Shown here piece by piece: positions 7,390 to 24,937 of a DNA stretch of 25,995 nucleotides. The notes beneath the pieces are model-generated. The model was not told the origin of the DNA. It made no database searches and worked only from the letters and a program-made list of their open reading frames with translations. The stretch comes from a virus: positions 1 to 25,995 of IMG/VR virus record IMGVR_UViG_3300019487_000539, one strand, 5' to 3'. Positions within the stretch are counted from its first letter, which is position 1. Every line of letters starts with the position of its first letter. The translations under genes and the position numbers were made by a program.

Positions 7390-9132
7390 TCAACTCCTTG
7401 GTGCTACCCCAGGGCCGCAGTAAATCGGGCCTTCGCCCGGCTTAGGATGCTGTCGTTGCCAAAAATTCTTGAACCAAGTGTAAGACGAACTTGGTTTTTC
7501 TTCAAGGTTAGGCGCTTCGTACTCCGGGTTCGTCGCCACCCAATACCTCAAGCAGTCGCAAAGGCAATCGACTTGACGCTTGGCAGGTTTTTCAGTAATG
7601 AACCCCTTGTCATCCGTGGCTTTCACGTATGTTTCCAGCATCAGCAGAAAATTCGGGCAGCGGTCGGTCATGACGCGCAGCCACGGCCGCCTGGAAGGGT
7701 AGGGCACAATCATCTTTTCCCGCACGAGGGCAAGGCCAGCGTCCAAATCGTCGCTGGACCACATGAAATTGCTGCCAGTGACTTCCGATTGCAGGCCAAC
7801 TTTGGCGAAAGCGTCGGCGTAGACCTGCTGAATGTTCTGCGTGCTTCCCATCGGTGTCATGCGGCCCGCGGCAAAGTCGATGATGAACCGCCGAAAGTGA
7901 TGGCTCCGCGCTTTGTGCTCAACAGCCTTGGCCAGTTGCGTGGCGTCCGAATTGGGCAGGTAGACTTCATCGAAAATCACGCCCGCTACGCCCAACTTAG
8001 GCGGCGGAATCGCGCAGAATAAAACGCCAGGGTGCGTGTGTCCGGGATCGAGGATCAGGTCGCAACACCAATCTCTGGGGATGGCCTTCGTGCTGCGCAG
8101 CAGCTTGTCGATGTCGTCGTCAAACGCTTCGTCCTCTGCGGGGGTACAGTGGATGGAGGGCGTGAAGTTAGGCCACACCAGATAGTCGCCGGAAACCAAC
8201 TCGCCTTCGTCGCGGCGGCGGCGCTCATCTTCCGACCAGCCACGAAATCGCTTGGCCTTTTCCTCTGAGTCGATATAGGGGTTCGCCGAGAAAGTCATCC
8301 TGACTTCCTCGCAATCCGGGATTTCCGAACCGCGCTGCTGTTCGCAGCGTTTGATGAGGTCGATGAGCGCGAAGTTGACGTGTCCGGGGTAGACTGACCA
8401 GACAATCCGTCCCTTGCGGTCGGAGATGCGGGCTTGCCATTCGGCGTAGTGCTTTGGGAAGCGAATGGCCTCGTCCACCCAAATTAAGTCGCAGGCCACA
8501 CCTTGCTTGGCTTCGGCCAATGAGGTGAAGGCAAAAATTTCTGTGCCGTCGCTGTCCGGGTAGCCGGGAAATCCGGGCTGAGGCTTCAAGACGACGCGGG
8601 TAAAGTGCCTCGCCGCCTTGCTGTGCCAGGCGATGCGTTTGATGTAACGCTTGGGAATCAGCGGCGGGGCCGGCACGACTTCGTTGCGGTCTTTGCGTTT
8701 CTTGTCTGCTTCGGAGAGCGGATTGAAGGCCCGCCATTGCCCGGTATTCTCGTCGCGGAGCATGGAAAGTTCAGGGGCCGACGTGAAGAGTTTGCCCCAC
8801 AAAGGATCGGCGATATGCTTTTCGCCGTAACCGATGACCCAGATACATAGAGGTCGGTTTTGTGGCCAGCGCCAGGGGAGTGGCTGGCCATCGCAGCCGA
8901 TGATCGGCATGCCGGTGGCGGCTGAAGCGACGAGCGCAGCGGCGCAGGCTGTTTTCCCAGAGCGGTTGCCGCCTCGCAGCAGCAGCTCGGAGGCGCGCGA
9001 CATGAAGGCCCGTTCCTGATGAGGCAGGGGGCGGAAGATTTTCAAGCCTTCGGTCTGCCGGCGCGACAAAGCGCCGGCGACTTCTTTCATCCGTTTCGAG
9101 TTGAACAACTCTTGCCGCTCATGGAGTCCCAC
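7390..9132 (-). CDS. terL: Terminase large subunit (ATPase and nuclease), 580 aa
   Basis: This is the motor that pumps DNA into the prohead and cuts it at the portal. The N-terminal ATPase shows Walker A GGNRSGKT at residues 54-61 and Walker B LIWVDE with D220/E221. The C-terminal RNase-H-like nuclease has its acidic residues in LILDPGH (D362), RRFIIDF (D419) and DCLCDCLRY (about D526). The length is normal for the family. The ATG at 9130-9132 overlaps the preceding gene by 46 nt and has only a distant GGAG, so a slightly downstream start is possible. The stop overlaps the ribosome-binding site of the next gene. Confidence 0.93.
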   Translation of the reverse strand: MGLHERQELFNSKRMKEVAGALSRRQTEGLKIFRPLPHQERAFMSRASELLLRGGNRSGKTACAAALVASAATGMPIIGCDGQPLPWRWPQNRPLCIWVIGYGEKHIADPLWGKLFTSAPELSMLRDENTGQWRAFNPLSEADKKRKDRNEVVPAPPLIPKRYIKRIAWHSKAARHFTRVVLKPQPGFPGYPDSDGTEIFAFTSLAEAKQGVACDLIWVDEAIRFPKHYAEWQARISDRKGRIVWSVYPGHVNFALIDLIKRCEQQRGSEIPDCEEVRMTFSANPYIDSEEKAKRFRGWSEDERRRRDEGELVSGDYLVWPNFTPSIHCTPAEDEAFDDDIDKLLRSTKAIPRDWCCDLILDPGHTHPGVLFCAIPPPKLGVAGVIFDEVYLPNSDATQLAKAVEHKARSHHFRRFIIDFAAGRMTPMGSTQNIQQVYADAFAKVGLQSEVTGSNFMWSSDDLDAGLALVREKMIVPYPSRRPWLRVMTDRCPNFLLMLETYVKATDDKGFITEKPAKRQVDCLCDCLRYWVATNPEYEAPNLEEKPSSSYTWFKNFWQRQHPKPGEGPIYCGPGVAPRS

Positions 9133-10111: not shown

Positions 10112-11077
10112 CTATACCGCGGCGCTGAACGGAGTCGCTTCCGTGCCAGTGCCTTGCAGCCAGGCCTGAACGCAAAACTGGTTTGAGGCCACGTCGATCA
10201 GGTCGATGCGGTCGCCGATGATGCCGCCCTTTGTGCTGCCGTTCATCGTCATCGTGTCGGACGTGCCGCTCGTCTCAAAGGCCACAAGCGTGTCGCCGCC
10301 ATCCTGCGCCATCCAAGCCGTCCCCTGCATGATGTGGGAAGCGTCCGCCACCTGGATAATGTTGTTGTTCGATGTGACCGTTGTGCCTGTGTAGAACGTG
10401 TAGCAGACCCCGGAGCCCGTCGCCGCCGGCAACGTTACCGTGATGCCTGCCGCCCGGTTGAGGGTAATCACGTGGTTCCCGTGCGCGGCACGGGTCAGCG
10501 TGATTGTGGCAGCAGTTACGTTGGTCAAAAGCGGCACGGCGGCCCCGGCCCTGACGTTGGTGAAATCGACATAGGCCCGGTAGAGGGTGTCAGCGGCCGA
10601 AGTCGGCGCCATCATGCGACCGAACACGGTCCCCGTCTCGGCGCTAAGCGCCTCCACGATCTTGCCGCCGGCGGCCGTCATAATCGGGTCTCCGGCCGCA
10701 ATCTCCGTGGCGTTAGCCGTGGTGACTTCCGTTGGGCCGCGGCGCACCAGCCAGAAATAGCTGTTGCTCGGAACGGTCGTAGCCAAGTGCTCGTCAGCGA
10801 TGCCGTCGGCCACTTCATTGGCGGCGGCCACGGCAGAGACCGCCTTCAGCGCATCGCTGCCCGACCAGTCGAACTTGTAGGCCAAGCCCTTGGTGACAGT
10901 GCCGCCGGTCTGGTTCTGGACCAAAACGCACTCGACATCGTAGCCGGATTGCTTGGTCAAGACGCCCGTCGTGACCCCGTAATCATTGTCAGGGAATACG
11001 TGCCGCAGCCCGACCAGACCGTCAGGGATGCTCGTCCAGCTTTTGCCGCGGGTGAATAAGCCTTGTCCTTTATCCAT
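10112..11077 (-). CDS. Capsid decoration / head-fibre-like protein, 321 aa
   Basis: It lies immediately after the major capsid gene, where tailed phages place decoration proteins. The first ~185 residues are a beta-rich domain resembling DUF2190-type capsid proteins (GYDVECVLVQNQTGGTV, EIAAGDPIMTAAGGKIVEA). The last ~137 residues are the Thr/Gly-rich domain shared with the 177-aa protein at 2531-3064, including the identical ending TGTEATPFSAAV. ATG 11075-11077 has a modest AGGG upstream. No signal peptide. The fused domain probably projects from the capsid surface. A terminator follows, so it closes the head transcription unit. Confidence 0.75.
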   Translation of the reverse strand: MDKGQGLFTRGKSWTSIPDGLVGLRHVFPDNDYGVTTGVLTKQSGYDVECVLVQNQTGGTVTKGLAYKFDWSGSDALKAVSAVAAANEVADGIADEHLATTVPSNSYFWLVRRGPTEVTTANATEIAAGDPIMTAAGGKIVEALSAETGTVFGRMMAPTSAADTLYRAYVDFTNVRAGAAVPLLTNVTAATITLTRAAHGNHVITLNRAAGITVTLPAATGSGVCYTFYTGTTVTSNNNIIQVADASHIMQGTAWMAQDGGDTLVAFETSGTSDTMTMNGSTKGGIIGDRIDLIDVASNQFCVQAWLQGTGTEATPFSAAV

Positions 11078-11136: not shown

Positions 11137-12273
11137 TTACGCATAAGCCTTCAGCTTCCCGAAGAACTTCGGCTGATAGCGGACGTTTCCGAAAAAGCCG
11201 GCGTAAAACAGGTAGTTCATGGTCCGCATGTCGAACTCCGGCCCCTTCGTGAAGAACATGACGGGCGCGAGCGAGGCCAGTTCCATCTGTTGGGCGTTGA
11301 TGATGTAGCCATTGCCGGCCGGCACGTCGAACTCGCTCTTAATCATCAAGCCGTCGAACTTCAGCACATCCGAGAAACCCAGGTCTTCAGCCTCGCTGTG
11401 CTGGACCGTAATCCGCATTTTGGCTTCTTGGTAGTTCTGGAAATCGACGAAGAAGTTGCTGGCCAGAAAGCAGGAGGTCGGCTTGCCGTCGCTTCCGCCG
11501 TTCTTGGTCAGCCAGTGGACCCCTTGCCGCAGCACGCGGGCGCAGTTGTCTTCCCAGGAGGTCGATCCAGTTCCCCAACTCGTGGAAGACGTGTTCAAGA
11601 GAGTCGGCGAAAGCGCGTCATAAGCGCTCGATCCGGCGCCGTGCGGCCAGTCCGTGGCAATCGAGGCGTTGGGGCGAGACGCGGTTGCCAAGTCAGTGGA
11701 CCAAGTGCCGCCCAATGCACCAACGTCCGTGTCTTGGCCGCCGTATTTGTCGTCTGGCTTGGCGACTAGATCGGCGGCGACAGTGGTCCCGGACGCCAAG
11801 AACGTCTCCATCCCGTGAATCCGATTGTCGTTGTTGGCCGCATCGCCGTCGATATAGAACTCGCCGTGGAACTTGTTGTCCAGCGATTGCCGGAGTTGCG
11901 GAATGATACGGCGATAGCGGTCCACAATGGCCACTTCGCCCTTGTTCATGAGACGGTCCTTCTCGTGCATCTTGTCGGTCACGATGTAGCCGCGCCAATC
12001 AGTAGTCAGCGACGTGAACAGGTCGTGCTCGTCGAAGGAAATCTCGCCGCCGGCGCCGTGAGCCGTGACAGGAGGCTCGTCATGCTGTATCAACCAAGTG
12101 TTGGTGACGCCGTTTTCGTCGTAGATGATCCGCCCGTACTTGGCCAATAAGGAAAGCATGAGCCGCTTGCGGATCGTGAGGTCCGACGCGCCAGCGAAAT
12201 ACTTGGCGGCGGTGGCCTTGATGACAGCAAGACCTTCGCCGGCCGTTTGGGTGACGGAAGGAGTCGTAGGCAC
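11137..12273 (-). CDS. Major capsid protein, 378 aa
   Basis: The start is GTG 12271-12273, preceded by TTGGAG 9 nt upstream. Length, position between a scaffold-like gene and a decoration gene, and composition fit an HK97-fold major capsid protein. An N-terminal helix (SDLTIRKRLMLSLLAKYGRIIY) precedes a loop and the long helix region (RRIIPQLRQSLDNKFHGEFYIDG). Central Ser/Gly-rich loops and a C-terminal half with VFFTKGPEF-like beta segments (PVMFFTKGPEFDMRTMNY) follow. It has no embedded protease. A separate scaffold precedes it. I infer the fold; no single diagnostic motif exists. Confidence 0.8.
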   Translation of the reverse strand: MPTTPSVTQTAGEGLAVIKATAAKYFAGASDLTIRKRLMLSLLAKYGRIIYDENGVTNTWLIQHDEPPVTAHGAGGEISFDEHDLFTSLTTDWRGYIVTDKMHEKDRLMNKGEVAIVDRYRRIIPQLRQSLDNKFHGEFYIDGDAANNDNRIHGMETFLASGTTVAADLVAKPDDKYGGQDTDVGALGGTWSTDLATASRPNASIATDWPHGAGSSAYDALSPTLLNTSSTSWGTGSTSWEDNCARVLRQGVHWLTKNGGSDGKPTSCFLASNFFVDFQNYQEAKMRITVQHSEAEDLGFSDVLKFDGLMIKSEFDVPAGNGYIINAQQMELASLAPVMFFTKGPEFDMRTMNYLFYAGFFGNVRYQPKFFGKLKAYA

Positions 12274-15148: not shown

Positions 15149-15189
15149 TCGTTCATCGGTCACGGTTCTTGTGAAAGGAGTTTGCTATA

Positions 15190-15244
15190 GGGCGGGGGGT
15201 CAGTGGTTTCTAGCCGCACAACGCGGCAACCGGCCCGCGCGGTA
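15190..15244 (+). repeat. 55-bp direct repeat, copy 1 (leader of the 131-aa gene)
   Basis: This stretch is identical over 55 nt to 16591-16645. It can fold as GGTT-TCTA-GCCGC, ACAAC loop, GCGGC-AACC. It lies directly upstream of the ribosome-binding site of the next gene. Confidence 0.95.
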
Positions 15245-15661: not shown

Positions 15662-15713
15662 TCTCGATGAGGACGTGGCCAAAATCGAATCGCTGCTAAG
15701 TAACAGCCTCCTG

Positions 15714-15739
15714 CCCTCGCCCCCCTTCGGGGGCGAGGG
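15714..15739. repeat. PSPPFGGEGW-type palindromic repeat, copy 1
   Basis: An 11-bp perfect stem (CCCTCGCCCCC / GGGGGCGAGGG) with a CTTC loop, followed by GTTGGCTG. The 33-nt core is identical at 17478-17510. When translated it reads PSPPFGGEGW, a form I associate with dispersed palindromes in planctomycete genomes. It separates two genes and may also terminate or stabilise RNA. Confidence 0.85.
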
Positions 15740-15771
15740 TTGGCTGGCCAACCATTTGAAAAGGAGTCTGC

Positions 15772-16571: not shown

Positions 16572-16598
16572 CCCCGCCCTCGTTCAACGAGGGCGGGG
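16572..16598 (+). terminator. Strong GC hairpin after the 165-aa gene
   Basis: CCCCGCCCTCGTT and AACGAGGGCGGGG are exact reverse complements around a single C (in practice an 11-bp stem with a 5-nt loop). No T-run follows; the 55-bp repeat starts inside its right arm. It may act as a terminator or RNA 3'-end stabiliser. Confidence 0.55.
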
Positions 16599-16645
16599 GG
16601 TCAGTGGTTTCTAGCCGCACAACGCGGCAACCGGCCCGCGCGGTA
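16591..16645 (+). repeat. 55-bp direct repeat, copy 2 (orphan)
   Basis: Identical to 15190-15244, but here followed by tandem GTAGCTGCGGCCTGG units and no plus-strand start codon with a ribosome-binding site, so it has no evident downstream gene. Confidence 0.95.
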
Positions 16646-17467: not shown

Positions 17468-17477
17468 TGTTCAACAG

Positions 17478-17503
17478 CCCTCGCCCCCCTTCGGGGGCGA
17501 GGG
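17478..17503. repeat. PSPPFGGEGW-type palindromic repeat, copy 2
   Basis: Same 11-bp stem and CTTC loop as at 15714, again followed by GTTGGCTG. It lies 10 nt after the stop of the 149-aa gene and before the zinc-finger gene. Confidence 0.85.
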
Positions 17504-17543
17504 TTGGCTGCTGACTAAAACCAAAACTGCGAGAACCCCAAAA

Positions 17544-17904: not shown

Positions 17905-18135
17905 CTAGCCCTTCCGAATCAACCACTCAATCACACACGTCGCCAAAGGCCAGAAAATATGCCCTGCCAGCACCCCGAAGGCGAACGGGATAATCGGGAA
18001 GCGTCTGGATAGCTCGTAAATCTGCACGCTGATGGTCGCTTGCGGCCCAAACTTGAGTCCGACGAAAATGGTATACGCCACGAGCGCTACCGTCGTGAAG
18101 AGGATCACCAGTTTGGTCACATCGCGCGGGTCCAC
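17905..18135 (-). CDS. Two-helix membrane protein, possibly holin-like, 76 aa
   Basis: GTG 18133-18135 begins a protein with two hydrophobic helices, LVILFTTVALVAYTIFVGL (residues ~9-27) and IIPFAFGVLAGHIFWPLATCVIEWL (~48-72), joined by a polar loop (GPQATISVQIYELSRRFP). The C-terminus is basic (IRKG). Length and topology fit a small phage holin or membrane accessory. It overlaps the end of the zinc-ribbon gene upstream by 19 nt. A second holin-like candidate is encoded at 24698-24937. Confidence 0.68.
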   Translation of the reverse strand: MDPRDVTKLVILFTTVALVAYTIFVGLKFGPQATISVQIYELSRRFPIIPFAFGVLAGHIFWPLATCVIEWLIRKG

Positions 18136-18442: not shown

Positions 18443-18709
18443 CTACAATGCCCGCTGCAACAACTGCCGCGGGGCAAACGGACCCAGCGCACGCGGCAAC
18501 GGCGCAGGTAACTGCGGAATCCGGTTGATCGGACCTTGGAGCAACCGCGGCGCCGGGGCCGGCAACCGCCGCAACAGCCTTGGCAATGGCGCCTGGGGCC
18601 GGCGTTGCAGCAGTCCGCGACGAGGCTGTTGGGCGTCCACGGAAGCCGCGAATCCCAACAGCAACGACGCTGCCAAAAGCAGGCGAGACAATGACCACCT
18701 ACCTTTCAT
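18443..18709 (-). CDS. Secreted Leu/Pro/Arg-rich protein, 88 aa
   Basis: A clear signal peptide starts MKGRWSLSRLLLAASLLLGF and should be cleaved near SVDA-QQ (about residue 26). The mature ~62 residues consist almost only of Leu, Pro, Arg, Ala and Gln, with repeated RLL/LPAP/PRLL units (LPRLLRRLPAPAPRLLQ, LPAPLPRAL). It is strongly cationic. It follows the Gly/Tyr-rich secreted gene with a 2-nt gap, so the two are probably co-translated. The composition resembles proline-arginine-rich membrane-active peptides, but a cell-envelope protein is as likely. Confidence 0.62.
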   Translation of the reverse strand: MKGRWSLSRLLLAASLLLGFAASVDAQQPRRGLLQRRPQAPLPRLLRRLPAPAPRLLQGPINRIPQLPAPLPRALGPFAPRQLLQRAL

Positions 18710-18711
18710 GG

Positions 18712-19035
18712 TTAGTACACCCGCCGCAGGTTGCCAAAGGCGTCTTTGACGAACCGACCGCGGAAGCGGCTGAACTTGTTGAAGTTGTTGAAGTTGCGGC
18801 CGTGGAATCCATAGCTGTTGAAGCTATTGAAACCATAGAATGGGGCCGCGTAGCCCTGCGTACAGACTGGCGCCGGCACACAATTGGCGAAGCTGTTGTA
18901 GCCGCCAAAGCCAGCGCCGTAGAAGTTGCTCCCGCCGTAGAAGCTACTGCCGCAGCCACCATAGGCTTGGGCCGTCGGCTGAGCGCTCAACGCGAGCGCT
19001 AATACGGCCGCGACAATCAAAAGGAAACGCTTCAT
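18712..19035 (-). CDS. Secreted Gly/Tyr/Phe/Asn-rich low-complexity protein, 107 aa
   Basis: ATG 19033-19035 follows GAGGAGGAGG with a 6-nt spacer, a very strong ribosome-binding site. The signal peptide (MKRFLLIVAAVLALALSAQP) is followed by a low-complexity body: YGGCGSSFYGGSNFYGAGFGG, then a Cys-containing middle (CVPAPVC), then FNSFNSYGFHGRNFNNFNKF and a basic tail. Such Gly/aromatic/Asn-rich sequences are disordered and can self-associate. Planctomycetes often encode short secreted proteins of this style. It shares an operon with exported CxxCH proteins. Confidence 0.7.
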   Translation of the reverse strand: MKRFLLIVAAVLALALSAQPTAQAYGGCGSSFYGGSNFYGAGFGGYNSFANCVPAPVCTQGYAAPFYGFNSFNSYGFHGRNFNNFNKFSRFRGRFVKDAFGNLRRVY

Positions 19036-19071: not shown

Positions 19072-20289
19072 CTAAGGTTTTGGCGGGGGCGGCGGCGTTT
19101 CGCTCGCCGGCCCACCCTTCATCAACATCGCTTCCATGTCCGCAAAGGCTTGCTTGGCTTCCGCGCTCAGCTTGCCGCCTGGCGGCATGCTGCCATCGCG
19201 GACCCGCCCAAACACCTTGGGGATCTGGTCCTCTTTCACGCTCTCGATGGCCAAGGCCGAGCCTTTGCCCATCAGTAGTTTTTCGCTGCCGCCGCCGGTG
19301 TCCGGTCCCCCGTGGCAGCGCAGGCAGTTCGCTGAGGCAGCAGCCGCGAAGCGCCGGAACGTCTCGTCGGCACCGCCCTCCAAGGGGAGGGTTGGCGGCG
19401 TAGCGGGACTGCCCCCCGCTTCGGGCAGGACGCGAAAGGTCGCTGTGCCATTCCTGTCCGTCTGGATTTGCAAAGTCTGGCTGCGGCTGGGCGTCATCAA
19501 GGCCGCCATCGCCCGCCATCGCTCAAGCTCCGTCTGATTCTGCTGCTGAGCCAACTGACTGCGCATTTGCAACTCGTGTAACACCCTGGCGGAATCAGTG
19601 ATTTGGCCCAAGATGGCGCGCGTCTCGCTGCTGATCCGCACGCTGCCCGCCTCGCGAGCGACATCCATGCTCGCCAACGTGTTGGCCAGCGATCCAAAGT
19701 CGAATTCACGCAAGGGGGCCGCGAAGCTGTTGTAGGTTGGGTCCACACTGCCGTAGACCGTGTTCCCCTGCACTTGCGGCAGGTCGCCAATCAAAATGCT
19801 CGCCGGGTTGCCGCCTGCCTGCTGAATAGAAAGGCTTTGGCTTTGCATCGCTCCGTAGGGCGTTTGAACACCGTAGCCCTGCTGGTATTGCTGAGTTGCC
19901 GGAAAGTGCTTGTTCATCAACTCCGCAAACCGGGCCGTCTCGTCGCGCTTGCCGAGCACTTCCAGGAAACGTCCCTGCCACCCTTTTTCAGGCGCGCCGT
20001 GCCCATTGCCATACACGTAGGCAGAAGCCTGCGCCGAATTCTGGCCGTAGATCTGTTGGTCGTAGGCTTGCTGCTGTGGCTGGAATTGTTGCAACTCAGC
20101 CTGAGTCAGCGGGCGCACGGGCTGGCTGTACCATTGGCCGTAGTGGTAGCTGTGCCATGTGTAGACCCAACCGTCCGGCTTGCCGGTTAAATCGGTCCAG
20201 ACGTAAGTGTTGTCACCCAGGGGAACCCACGCCGCTCGCGCCGGGAGTCCGCAGCACAGCACGCAGAGAGTAATGATCCAGGATTTCAT
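19072..20289 (-). CDS. Exported protein with C-terminal cytochrome c domain, 405 aa
   Basis: A signal peptide (MKSWIITLCVLCCGLPARAA) is followed by a Gln/Tyr-rich region, a helical middle and a C-terminal cytochrome c-type domain. Haem attachment is CLRCH at residues 322-326, and GSMPPGG (Met 368) supplies the likely axial ligand. A proline-rich tail ends it. Cytochrome c maturation in the periplasm is expected, so it probably works in the envelope of the host. The linker before the haem domain (LPLEGGADE) is encoded by a palindromic element. It overlaps the preceding CxxCH gene by 4 nt (ATGA) and must be co-translated. Confidence 0.78.
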   Translation of the reverse strand: MKSWIITLCVLCCGLPARAAWVPLGDNTYVWTDLTGKPDGWVYTWHSYHYGQWYSQPVRPLTQAELQQFQPQQQAYDQQIYGQNSAQASAYVYGNGHGAPEKGWQGRFLEVLGKRDETARFAELMNKHFPATQQYQQGYGVQTPYGAMQSQSLSIQQAGGNPASILIGDLPQVQGNTVYGSVDPTYNSFAAPLREFDFGSLANTLASMDVAREAGSVRISSETRAILGQITDSARVLHELQMRSQLAQQQNQTELERWRAMAALMTPSRSQTLQIQTDRNGTATFRVLPEAGGSPATPPTLPLEGGADETFRRFAAAASANCLRCHGGPDTGGGSEKLLMGKGSALAIESVKEDQIPKVFGRVRDGSMPPGGKLSAEAKQAFADMEAMLMKGGPASETPPPPPKP

Positions 20290-22550
20290 GGAGCCATGAT
20301 CCCCTTCTTTTCAACCGCCTTCCGTTTCAACACTTTTTTCAGAATCTCTTTCTGATCTAGAGTTTGCACCGGGCGCGGCTTGACCCTATTGATTTTAGTG
20401 CGTAGAGCCTGTTTTGCCAATTCGACCTGTGCCATCTTGCCGGAAGTCAGGAGGCTCCTAGTCATCGCGTCGAAGTAAATCAACTCCCACGCCGGCCGGG
20501 TGATAAACTGCGGCGACTCCGGGTTAGCTGGGTCGCCAACCACCAGCCGCAGCCAGGCGATATGCGGGTCCAGGATCGTAATGTTGAGCCGCGGCGTAAT
20601 GGAAGGCAGGACATAGCGGATTAAGTCCCTGGCGGCCTTCTCGTCTTTCACGTCGTATCCGAGCTCGCGCACGGCGACGAGCGGCAAAATCCAGGTGTAG
20701 GTGTAGTAACCGTAAAGCTGCGATAGATGCAGGCAGGCTTCGTCGGCCCCCCACGGTTCTTTGAACTTGTGCATCCGGCCGTCCGGGAGCTTGATGCCCG
20801 CCGTGGCCCGGTAACAGGCGTCGTCAAAGTCGTCCCGGCTGCGAACGAGCGCCGCGCGAGTCGTCGGGTCCGTGGGGTCCCACTCATACAGCCCAACCAG
20901 AGTATCAGACAGGTCAAAGAGGTCCTGCGCGCTCGATACATCGTCGAGGATGTCAATATGCCCAGCGGTAAGCGTTTTGATGTCGTTGCGGATATTCATA
21001 TGCCCGCGGTTGGGACCGTGGCAGCGGATGCACGAGATACAGCTTTGAAGTCTCGTCGTGTACGGCTCTGGAATGCGATGATCTGAAACGATAAAATCTG
21101 GAGCGCTGTTTTGAAGAACACCAGCAGCGTTGAACAACAGAAACAACAGCATGCCGTTAGGGCGCTCAACGATTACTTCGGCTGCCGCGAACTCAAAGGC
21201 AATCAAGTTAAGAACCGGCGAGTTGGCGGCTGCCACCTGATCGTCGCCGGGGTCTTCCGTCCACGTCGCTAGCGCTCCGGCCACGCTAGGACGCACGCCC
21301 TGGCCTTGGGCCATGTTGATAGCCCGCTCGCGGCCGGTGACGAAGCTGTAGAACATCGCCGCGCGGTTCTTGGAGCGGAGCTGATCGACCACCTCCAGGT
21401 CGATGCCGGCGTCAAGTAGCGCCTGCTCGAAATCGGTGTTGCCATCCACGCCAGCCTGCACGCCAGCCAGTTGGTAGTACAGGCCGGCTCCGTGCCCCAG
21501 GTCCACGCTGCTTGTAGCTCGGTGGACAAAGTACGGCGAGTAGGTGATAGCCGCGTCGGACTGCGTTAGCTCCACTAGTTTGTCGAGTACACCGCCAATA
21601 TTGGCGTGCCGGGCCGGCACGGGGACTTCGACGTTGGCGGCCAAGGCCCCCGTCCCGCTACGGCGGGTTTGCTTGGTCGCCGCATCGTCGATCTTGTCGG
21701 CCTGACGAACTAGCTCATCAACCGCGTCCCGCAACAGCTTGAGCGCCGAAAAAAAACCCGTGTAGTCACCATCCGTGCCGCCGCGGCGCTCGCGGTGTGC
21801 CCTGTCGGCGTCCGCGACGAAGCGTTTGAGCACAGCCAGGTTGAACTGCCGTCGTTTGGAAAGCTCTTGTTGCAAGCCGCCGAGCCGTAGGAACTCGGCC
21901 CACTCGCGTTCCACGTCGGCTGAGCGGATCGCTTTCAACTCGTCGCGGACTTTCTGCAACGCTTCGTCGGTCTTAATGAAAAAAACGTTGAGCGCGTCGA
22001 TGGTATTCGTTCGGGCGATGTCCAGCTCGTCCGCCAGAACCAGAAATTCATGAAAGTAGGGGTCGAAGGCCAACTGCTCCCAGGTGTCGATCAGGTTTTG
22101 CAGGTCATCGACTCGTGGCGCAAACACCCGTAGATCAACACGGATGATGTTAGGGTGCACCCACACTGCGTAGTGGATGAAGCTCGACTGCGAGACCACG
22201 AGATTCAGCACGAACTGGTTAACGCGAACGTGCAGTTCGTTCTGATAGCTGGGAATAAAGAGGTAGCGAAAAAAGGGGGTGTCTTTGACTGGATCGTACT
22301 TGAGCGCATCGGCCAGTGCGATCCGCACGGCATCGAGCGGCACCAGAAAGCGGCCGATTTGGTACGTCTTGCCGCCCGGCAGCGGCGCTTCCAGTGGATG
22401 GCGGATTTCTTCGCCTGGCTCAGCGTACGAAGCCGGCTGAAAGAGCGTCATCCACAACGGAGCTGCGCCAAGAAAGCTGCATCCCGCGAAGAGAGCCGCG
22501 AGCACGAGCAGTTCTCGTAGCGCAATTCTGAAAACGAAGGGGGCGCCCAA
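20286..22550 (-). CDS. Large exported CxxCH (cytochrome c-like) protein, 754 aa
   Basis: The TTG start (22548-22550) directly abuts the TGA of the upstream gene, with GAGG 9 nt away. A hydrophobic N-terminus (LRELLVLAALFAGCSFLGAA) is a signal peptide or, because a Cys follows, possibly a lipoprotein signal. Residues ~60-290 include long helices. CISCIRCH (504-511) is a haem-binding CxxCH with an extra Cys, followed by helical repeats (YEWDPTD..., YGYYTYTWILPL). The last ~50 residues are basic. The family is not recognised beyond the haem motif. It is coupled to the cytochrome c gene downstream, so they probably act together. Confidence 0.7.
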   Translation of the reverse strand: MGAPFVFRIALRELLVLAALFAGCSFLGAAPLWMTLFQPASYAEPGEEIRHPLEAPLPGGKTYQIGRFLVPLDAVRIALADALKYDPVKDTPFFRYLFIPSYQNELHVRVNQFVLNLVVSQSSFIHYAVWVHPNIIRVDLRVFAPRVDDLQNLIDTWEQLAFDPYFHEFLVLADELDIARTNTIDALNVFFIKTDEALQKVRDELKAIRSADVEREWAEFLRLGGLQQELSKRRQFNLAVLKRFVADADRAHRERRGGTDGDYTGFFSALKLLRDAVDELVRQADKIDDAATKQTRRSGTGALAANVEVPVPARHANIGGVLDKLVELTQSDAAITYSPYFVHRATSSVDLGHGAGLYYQLAGVQAGVDGNTDFEQALLDAGIDLEVVDQLRSKNRAAMFYSFVTGRERAINMAQGQGVRPSVAGALATWTEDPGDDQVAAANSPVLNLIAFEFAAAEVIVERPNGMLLFLLFNAAGVLQNSAPDFIVSDHRIPEPYTTRLQSCISCIRCHGPNRGHMNIRNDIKTLTAGHIDILDDVSSAQDLFDLSDTLVGLYEWDPTDPTTRAALVRSRDDFDDACYRATAGIKLPDGRMHKFKEPWGADEACLHLSQLYGYYTYTWILPLVAVRELGYDVKDEKAARDLIRYVLPSITPRLNITILDPHIAWLRLVVGDPANPESPQFITRPAWELIYFDAMTRSLLTSGKMAQVELAKQALRTKINRVKPRPVQTLDQKEILKKVLKRKAVEKKGIMAP

Positions 22551-22691
22551 TCAAGTTTCCTCTTCCTCTTCGTCGCAGTAGGCGTCTTCCAGGTCCGTGA
22601 TCCGATCTTCCAGCGACCGCAGCCGAAAGTGGAACACCAACAAGAGCAAGCCTAGGCATATCCAGGCGGCCAGTTCCATCGCCAGTTCCAT
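22551..22691 (-). CDS. 46-aa single-helix membrane protein with acidic tail
   Basis: ATG 22689-22691 starts MELAMELAAWICLGLLLLVF, a duplicated MELA followed by a hydrophobic helix (residues ~8-20). After it come a basic turn (HFRLRS), a charged helix (LEDRITDLEDAY) and a glutamate run. The second ATG, four codons later, is an alternative start produced by a 12-nt tandem duplication (22669-22692). Its stop touches the next start (TGATTG). It could be a spanin-like or anchoring peptide; unproven. Confidence 0.62.
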   Translation of the reverse strand: MELAMELAAWICLGLLLLVFHFRLRSLEDRITDLEDAYCDEEEEET

Positions 22692-22868: not shown

Positions 22869-23789
22869 TCATATTCTCGCTACGTGCGGCAGCGGCAACG
22901 GCTCAAGCGTCATAACGTCCACGGCGATATTGGTGCCCTTGATCCGATAGCGAACAGGCGGATCGCCCGGCGGTGGAGGCGGTGGAGGCGGCGATGGCGG
23001 CGTGTTGGCGCCGTAACGGGTCACTACCTCGGCCGCGTCGGGCGGCTGAATCCGCAGTATGTCGCCACGATAAAAGGGCTGCATCAGCGCCACAGGGCCG
23101 TTGGGAGCCAAGTGCGGCAGTCCCAGGGCGTGGCCCATCTCATGAGCGATCACCGCTTCTAAGTGAATCCGTCCCTGCAAGGGAGGGCCTTCGCCGGCAA
23201 ACCAAATTTCTCGCGAGTCGTACCGCTGCTGCATGACATCGTTGGCAGCCGCACCGCAAGGCAGCATGGAGTCGGCCAACACACCGCCTGGCCCGCCAAG
23301 GTCGGCCACTGTAAGGATGACGTTCGCTGTGCGGAGATTGACTTTATAGAACATACCGACGCCGCAGGCATCGTCCCATTGTTTCGCGGCGCGCTCGGCG
23401 GCGGCCTTGAAATCAGCGTCACCGACGCCCGGCAATGTGCCGAGCACGCTATAGGTAATCTCTTTGTGGGGCCATTTGCACGGTTCCCCGACAGCTTGCA
23501 CGCTGTCAGGCGTGCCGCAAATCCGCGGCTGAAACAGCGAGTGCTGAGTCACCGGGCCGGGATACTCGTCGGGCAATAAGCTAGCCCACGACTGGTACTT
23601 TCTGATGGCTCTGCGAATGGCTTCCCAATGCACATCCACCAGCTTCGCGGCCGACTGCGGCGTGATTTTCACTTGCTTCGACCAGGCCAGCCAACCCAAC
23701 TGGACGAGCCGCATGATGATTGTGGCCCAGACTTCCGGCGGAATGTCGAAGGACAGCGACAGTGCCTGCTTGGGTTTCTTACGTGCCAT
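22869..23789 (-). CDS. Matrixin (M10-type) metalloprotease with cysteine-switch prodomain, 306 aa
   Basis: This is a zinc endopeptidase. Its catalytic core shows HEMGHALGLPH (H216, E217, H220, H226) with the Met-turn VALMQPFY (M236). Upstream, residues ~30-85 form a helical part like the peptidoglycan-binding-type prodomain of matrix metalloproteases, ending in PRICGTPD (C91). This resembles the PRCGxPD cysteine switch that keeps the enzyme latent by zinc coordination, with one residue inserted. A Pro-rich linker (~264-277) leads to a short C-terminal part. No signal peptide is visible. The start is ATG 23787-23789, overlapping the previous gene by 11 nt. Confidence 0.8.
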   Translation of the reverse strand: MARKKPKQALSLSFDIPPEVWATIIMRLVQLGWLAWSKQVKITPQSAAKLVDVHWEAIRRAIRKYQSWASLLPDEYPGPVTQHSLFQPRICGTPDSVQAVGEPCKWPHKEITYSVLGTLPGVGDADFKAAAERAAKQWDDACGVGMFYKVNLRTANVILTVADLGGPGGVLADSMLPCGAAANDVMQQRYDSREIWFAGEGPPLQGRIHLEAVIAHEMGHALGLPHLAPNGPVALMQPFYRGDILRIQPPDAAEVVTRYGANTPPSPPPPPPPPGDPPVRYRIKGTNIAVDVMTLEPLPLPHVARI

Positions 23790-24141
23790 TGGACGTTCTC
23801 GTCTCGTTAAGCTGCTGCGGGCGAGGCACTTCACAGTTAGGGATGTTGTCGGCCGCCTCGCACCCCCACTCGTACATCTGGTCGGCCCACTTGCGGATAG
23901 CGGTCAGTTCCTCTGTCAACTCGTGATGAAGTCGCTCCAGTTTCAGGACGGCCGCGGCGACGCGCTCATTGCCCGTGCGGTTGGCTCGGCTCTGGACTTC
24001 CAGGCGGGCGATGTCCTTGCCTTGACTGTCGTCTGTAATGGTGCGTTCATCAAGGCGTTCTTCGGCAGTGTGGAGCCGCGAGAGCACTTCGGCAAATCGC
24101 TGCTCCACGGTGTTCTTCCAGTTGTCCCAGCAGCCGAACAT
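23779..24141 (-). CDS. Coiled-coil protein, 120 aa
   Basis: ATG 24139-24141 lies 3 nt after the TGA of the preceding gene. Most of the protein is one charged helix with heptad-like spacing (FAEVLSRLHTAEERLDER, then LKLERLHHELTEELTAIRKW), so a coiled coil is likely. A Cys-containing end (EWGCEAADNIPNCEV) follows. There is no classical signal peptide. It overlaps the metalloprotease start, so they are co-translated. It might be a lysis accessory or a partner of the protease. Confidence 0.65.
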   Translation of the reverse strand: MFGCWDNWKNTVEQRFAEVLSRLHTAEERLDERTITDDSQGKDIARLEVQSRANRTGNERVAAAVLKLERLHHELTEELTAIRKWADQMYEWGCEAADNIPNCEVPRPQQLNETRTSNGT

Positions 24142-24330: not shown

Positions 24331-24752
24331 AGCTTCCGCCTCTTCTCATCGGGCCACCAGCGCCGCTCGGTCATCTCCCGGTCATCCAAAGTGCGGCTCT
24401 TCCACAGCTCGTTCGTCCTCACAAACCCCTCGCCCCAAGATACCAAGTAGTCGCCGCGCTCCAATCTCGAAACCTTGAATCCAGAAAGCCCTTCCCAACG
24501 CCAGTCGCGTATCCGGTAATCATGTCTGCCGCCTTCGCGAAACAGGATCGCCGTTCGCTCGGCCCCGTCTCTCCCAAACGTGTTCCACTCGATGGAGTCG
24601 CAATGTTCAAGGCCCCAGTCGCGTGGCTGTAGAGCCGTGGCGGCGGTCGCGAAAGAAACCGCCACGGCCCACAGCGCGGCGCGAGAGAGAATCTTAGCTA
24701 TTGCGACCCTGCATATTTGTGCGGCAGCGGAGTGCGCGTATCGCTGGCCCAT
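24318..24752 (-). CDS. Exported small protein, start uncertain, 144 aa
   Basis: The mature part (about LQPRDWGLEHCDSIEW to the end) is rich in Trp, Arg and Asp with a beta-strand pattern (YRIRDWRWEGLSGFKV). It is preceded by a hydrophobic segment (ALWAVAVSFATAATA) that works as a signal peptide. I use ATG 24750-24752, which overlaps the holin-like gene by 55 nt. Closer starts would be non-ATG codons after the holin stop. The frame is open still further but that part is Arg-rich and unlikely. It lies in the lysis-type operon; role unknown. Confidence 0.55.
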   Translation of the reverse strand: MGQRYAHSAAAQICRVAIAKILSRAALWAVAVSFATAATALQPRDWGLEHCDSIEWNTFGRDGAERTAILFREGGRHDYRIRDWRWEGLSGFKVSRLERGDYLVSWGEGFVRTNELWKSRTLDDREMTERRWWPDEKRRKLWQK

Positions 24753-24937
24753 TTCTTGACGAGCCAGAGCAGCCCGGCGCTGGCGATGTCCACCAGTTCT
24801 TTGTAAGTGCCAAAGTCGAAGGAGCCTGACAGTTCGACGGCTTTCGTGGCGAAGGCTACAAGGCCGAACCAGAAAGCGACTTTCAGGACTTCGCCGACTT
24901 CGCCGGCTGTCACGGTAAACCTGGAAGAACCGAGCAT
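24698..24937 (-). CDS. Holin-like two-helix membrane protein, 79 aa
   Basis: ATG 24935-24937 has AGAGGAG about 10 nt upstream. Two hydrophobic helices are visible, VLKVAFWFGLVAFATKAVEL (residues ~17-36) and IASAGLLWLVKKW (~50-63), with a polar hairpin and a basic, hydrophilic tail. Size and topology fit class II holins, which permeabilise the membrane at lysis. It opens an operon that also encodes an exported protein, a coiled-coil protein and a metalloprotease. No recognisable endolysin is present in the window. Confidence 0.66.
   Translation of the reverse strand: MLGSSRFTVTAGEVGEVLKVAFWFGLVAFATKAVELSGSFDFGTYKELVDIASAGLLWLVKKWASDTRTPLPHKYAGSQ

Follow-up and report, generated by a model that had tools for sequence, protein, structure and literature searches.

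What are two genes for exported proteins with heme c motifs doing in a phage genome? The window, by which we mean the whole 25,995-base stretch analysed, is an entire IMG/VR virus record in which a 754-residue and a 405-residue gene (p754 and p405) lie on the same strand (-) as genes for the terminase large subunit (TerL), the major capsid protein and further phage proteins. The original prediction had proposed that the pair might be envelope-directed cargo, a host cassette captured by the phage, or host DNA next to a prophage end. The pair and its phage context are as follows.

7390..9132, minus strand: terminase large subunit (context; profile matches)
11137..12273, minus strand: podovirus-type major capsid protein (context; profile matches)
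19072..20289, minus strand: p405, predicted exported monoheme cytochrome c with CLRCH and the Met ligand motif SMPPGG
20286..20289, minus strand: ATGA, stop of p754 and start of p405 (window sequence)
20286..22550, minus strand: p754, predicted exported protein of 754 aa with a TTG start and a heme c motif

Between the capsid genes and the pair with its neighbors lies a segment of about 4.5 kb that holds plus-strand ORFs and repeats. Two exact repeats, one of 56 nt (15189-15244 and 16590-16645) and one palindromic, GC-rich and of 34 nt (15713-15746 and 17477-17510), lie between plus-strand ORFs in this dividing segment at 13.5-18 kb. Elsewhere in the window, a 300-nt direct repeat with 76% identity (2532-2831 and 10113-10412) corresponds to a C-terminal domain (ITLNRAAGITVTLPAATG) common to two late proteins.

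The features originally claimed for the pair hold. The genes overlap by ATGA at 20286-20289, and each product has a CxxCH motif (CIRCH in p754, CLRCH in p405) and a signal-type N-terminus with a strong hydrophobic core, as judged from hydropathy and not from a dedicated predictor. The TTG start codon of p754 at 22550 is preceded by GAGGAAGAGG, and its CIRCH occupies residues 507-511 (about 21018-21032). ISC-RCHG is invariant across 13 aligned p754 homologs and SC..CH across 15, with no other invariant His or Met in the alignment that could serve as second axial ligand; a five-coordinate, perhaps peroxidase-like heme site is therefore possible, and we offer this as speculation. Searches of p754 against Pfam, PHROGs, NCBIfam and PDB sequences returned no match, none to an oxidoreductase included, and a fold search with its structural model (mean pLDDT 69) returned no credible one. 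p754 thus defines a family of predicted heme c proteins, heme binding being read from the motif, that lacks a counterpart in these four collections. The homolog in contig L020 (5162-7003) starts with MNRRSFLITGAKALAI, a Tat-type signal, and the other homologs are of the Sec type.

In p405, CLRCH falls at residues 322-326 (about 19312-19326) and is followed by GSMPPGG, the Met ligand motif that had been noted in the smaller protein. CxxCH is invariant in 13 p405 homologs and also present in L076, and the distal Met ligand (MP) is found in 12 of the 13 and in L076; the L020 protein has APKCPP in its place and hence no Met ligand. The invariance of CxxCH among p754 homologs and among p405 homologs led us to reject a chance occurrence of the motif. 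The p405 match to Cytochrome_CBB3 (1.4e-4) is under the cut-off, and the curated cut-off of PSCyt1 (PF07635) is passed by the p405-type proteins of L032 and L029 but not by p405 of the window. A PDB sequence search with p405 gave no credible match, and its model is poor (pLDDT 51), with an N-terminal beta region and a helical middle predicted at low confidence.

Relatives of the pair were found with patterns and alignments. Single-protein scans of the viral and genome collections found nothing, as did a tblastn search of plasmids with p754. Three viral contigs with true relatives were recovered with a DNA pattern for ISCIRCH; a second DNA pattern aimed at variants and an alignment with randomised rows, built to steer search patterns, yielded none. 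The alignment of the window with the three contigs then recovered 14 viral records and, from 257 Gb of prokaryote sequence, just two loci, counts that are lower bounds because the collection scan requires near-exact motif matches. After removal of repeats there are 13 distinct members including the window, and a planctomycete prophage and the published 595-kb huge phage LR756511.1, which carries the genes unannotated in its public record, bring the total to 15. Members beyond the window thus comprise 11 distinct IMG/VR phages, the huge phage, the prophage and a 17-kb Phycisphaerales MAG contig, the last being one of the two prokaryote loci. The other, a 33.6-kb phage contig in a Candidatus Parcubacteria MAG, has match coordinates identical to those of a viral contig (L030/L038) and nearly equals it in length, and is probably a binning error.

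Full-length p754 relatives are almost confined to phage sequences. A profile search of 392 Planctomycetota genomes found them in only two, the Phycisphaerales contig, which is short and phage-like, and genome G382. In G382, TerL (phrog_38, 1e-70), portal and decoration genes come after the p754 gene, which identifies this locus as a prophage; here a p754 homolog does adjoin TerL and portal, the neighborhood that the original prediction had in mind. Two contigs that carry the pair, of 55,426 and 90,921 bases, have phage gene content and 127-bp direct terminal repeats, which suggest complete genomes. The contigs represent different phage types: capsid E and a Mu-like portal are encoded by the 55-kb phage, the pooled ORFs of G005 and G013 include genes for crAss-like ring and muzzle proteins, and one jumbo phage has Tail_P2_I. 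Depending on the contig, the genes sit among TerL and portal, tail, or portal and capsid genes, that is, among late structural genes. Because they recur across independent assemblies, an assembly artefact was rejected. Planctomycetes are the presumed hosts on the strength of the G382 prophage, the Phycisphaerales contig and chromosomal relatives, all of them evidence from outside the window. The 91-kb phage (L020-L024) also carries many nucleotide-sugar and surface-sugar genes (epimerases, DegT aminotransferase, phosphoheptose isomerase) and a transketolase.

The conserved unit is larger than the pair originally noted, in that an upstream protease and a downstream third secreted protein belong to it. 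In the window, the neighbors of the pair are the following.

17905..18135, minus strand: membrane protein ORF of 76 aa downstream of the module, holin candidate by hydrophobicity only
18443..18709, minus strand: Arg/Pro-rich ORF of 88 aa with a signal-like N-terminus, uncertain module member (ORF list)
18712..19035, minus strand: small Gly/Phe/Asn-rich protein, 107 aa from ATG, predicted secreted from its signal-type N-terminus, third exported gene of the module
22551..22691, minus strand: ORF of 46 aa with one N-terminal transmembrane segment and an acidic coiled-coil-like tail
22869..23789, minus strand: metzincin protease (Peptidase_M10 1e-14, HEMGHALGLPH)
23779..24141, minus strand: coiled-coil-like protein of 120 aa preceding the protease, weak phrog_5975 match, function unknown
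24698..24937, minus strand: ORF of 79 aa with hydrophobic segments, holin candidate by hydrophobicity only

The module order is kept across divergent phages. A p405-type cytochrome c comes after p754 in 14 of the 15 members, the G382 prophage being the exception, and the 4-nt overlap of the two genes recurs in L027, L028, L029 and L032; in L040 several small genes intervene. In 13 contigs checked for a signal, the cytochrome c gene is followed by one for a small, predicted secreted protein; none was identified in L031. Distances among p754 proteins correlate with those among p405 proteins across phages (Mantel r 0.83), a correlation that joint inheritance alone may explain. As local variations, an HNH-like gene (11428-12006) sits between the two genes in L034, and a CAP-domain (PF00188) protein is encoded nearby in two large phage contigs (L032, 16139-16483; L039, 12146-12706).

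Upstream of p754, the 46-aa ORF of the window stops directly before the start codon and the metzincin lies beyond it. In eight members the gene before p754, or the one beyond a single small ORF, encodes a protease, and these proteases have three unrelated folds: metzincin (window, L020 and L044), papain (L027 and L076) and subtilase (L030, L039 and the G382 prophage). Catalytic motifs are intact in all eight. Protease type switches at least five times among the eight tips of the p754 tree, as expected under selection on role rather than fold. By hydropathy (by eye for the N-terminus of the L027 protease), the upstream proteases have no signal peptide, whereas p754, p405 and the small protein have signal-type N-termini; the window metzincin has a Pro-rich linker and C-tail. 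No protease lies immediately upstream of p754 in the jumbo phages L031-L033 and L034, where other genes are found, and in L040 a subtilase is encoded 8 kb downstream. Taken together, the pairing of p754 with p405, joined by the small secreted protein and frequently by a protease, is well shown as a recurring module in different phages.

The origin of the pair is indicated by Planctomycetota chromosomal proteins that match p754 more weakly. These are about 600-1160 aa long, and 11 of 11 combine an N-terminal CxxCH with a later NG-x-[SA]CxxCH in a single chain. The p405 profile matches most of their N-terminal parts, some weakly, and PSCyt1 is over the cut-off at the N-terminus of both relatives examined with Pfam. 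By these motifs and profiles, the phage pair appears to correspond, in two pieces, to a single planctomycete chromosomal protein, which argues that p754 and p405 act together. In a maximum-likelihood tree one branch (100/99) separates the 15 phage proteins from the 11 chromosomal ones, which fits one old capture. No phage neighbors were seen at the two chromosomal loci for which neighbors were listed. Given that the pair recurs inside phage genomes and that its relatives are single-chain planctomycete proteins, the original ideas of a captured host cassette and of envelope-directed cargo are supported, and the third option, host DNA, is not.

Based on these data, we propose that p754 and p405 form the core gene pair of a late egress or lysis module for planctomycete hosts, in which a protease would replace the peptidoglycan endolysin (probability about 0.42). 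The host would export p754 and p405 and attach heme c to them, and in the envelope the two would come together to form a split version of the host protein. The protease would meanwhile build up in the cytoplasm and exit through a holin-like pore, and protease, heme pair and small secreted protein would then disrupt the planctomycete envelope and release virions. We favor egress because the module order is conserved in divergent phages, because the eight upstream proteases keep intact catalytic motifs in three folds, because the exported trio has signal-type N-termini and the proteases have none, because the genes sit among late structural genes, because the distances of p754 and p405 correlate, and because all 11 chromosomal relatives are fused. 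The near absence of six peptidoglycan-hydrolase families from 11 phage records argues in the same direction: Amidase_2, SLT, Phage_lysozyme, Amidase_3, M23 and NLPC/P60 gave, over 1.9 Mb, a single M23 hit above the cut-off, which belongs to the 595-kb phage, and a further weak M23 hit, in a search that overlooks weak matches, the papain of the 55-kb phage (G001) having escaped it. The full Pfam list of that phage (63 ORFs) includes no peptidoglycan hydrolase. More tentatively still, diverse planctomycete phages of up to 595 kb may share an endolysin-free egress system made of a holin-released, exchangeable protease, a secreted split-PSCyt1 heme c pair and a small secreted protein. Planctomycetes, whose wall was long regarded as proteinaceous, are now known to possess peptidoglycan (PMC4432640). 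A hydrolase of some kind would hence be expected, which counts against the endolysin-free reading, and unrecognised hydrolases in the phage genomes are possible. The lack of a protease immediately upstream in L031-L033 and L034 likewise counts against egress.

Other roles would account for part of these observations. The heme pair and protease might remodel the envelope, altering surface proteins of the infected cell and so blocking adsorption by other phages. Three exported products, the repeated swapping of the protease type and the spread of the module over different phage types would all suit such superinfection exclusion, but proteases that lack signal peptides would need a pore to get to the surface and the late-gene position suits egress better, and we consider this role unlikely. 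Less likely again is that the pair acts as a decoy, a split copy of the planctomycete protein with PSCyt1 and NG-SC-CH that interferes with its host counterpart. Kinship with the chromosomal single-chain proteins speaks for it, as does a protein-kinase-like stretch seen by eye in the N-terminal part of one of them; however, that host protein has no known function, phage and host sequences are far apart, and the protease and small secreted protein would be left unexplained.

Equally doubtful is an auxiliary metabolic role, in which the two proteins would be periplasmic electron carriers that sustain host respiration during infection. The C-terminus of p405 is that of a monoheme cytochrome c with a Met ligand motif and its relatives match PSCyt1 over the cut-off, but p754 has neither an invariant second axial ligand nor an oxidoreductase match, p405 of L020 has no Met ligand, and proteases and the small secreted protein are frequent companions. 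Highly improbable, and rejected here, is that the pair is host DNA adjoining a prophage end. The plus-strand ORFs and repeats between module and capsid genes would suit such a boundary, but homologs would then be expected to be always chromosomal and the opposite is seen: modules homologous to this one are embedded in contigs that have terminal repeats and in the 595-kb phage, and full-length members occur in just 2 of 392 Planctomycetota genomes, one as a prophage and one on a short phage-like contig.

How phages leave planctomycetes, with their unusual envelope, is barely known, and one planctomycete phage is reportedly released without lysis (PMC10945688). The sharing of a module by unrelated phages suggests a barrier peculiar to the host and supplies named genes for its study, and the p754/p405 module is a possible marker for phages of planctomycetes. 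In the open-access literature we found no report of a cytochrome pair in planctomycete or huge phages and no description of such a module. PSCyt1 and the proteases are known separately; their linkage in one module is, as far as tested, new.

Several known systems resemble the module in part. Borg extrachromosomal elements carry multiheme cytochromes and are archaeal; they too place heme c proteins on a mobile element but differ in being archaeal and multiheme, and they have neither phage structural genes nor a protease module. PSCyt1 (PF07635) is a partial likeness: the L032 and L029 proteins pass its cut-off, p405 of the window does not, and chromosomal p754 relatives carry the domain N-terminally. 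In phages it is found at the C-terminus of a distinct protein, which has an N-terminal region and a signal peptide of its own. The chromosomal PSCyt1 plus NG-x-SCxxCH proteins, for which we found no family name, combine, in 11 of 11 cases, the two heme motifs with the p754-type region in one chain; they are fused with the cytochrome first, whereas the phage proteins are split with p754 first and form their own branch. The module also resembles phage lysis cassettes (holin, endolysin, spanin) in its late position, its signal-less and exchangeable catalytic protein, its small membrane proteins and its three exported products. It differs from them in that no recognised peptidoglycan hydrolase accompanies it, its catalytic protein being a protease of changing fold and its exported partners predicted heme c proteins.
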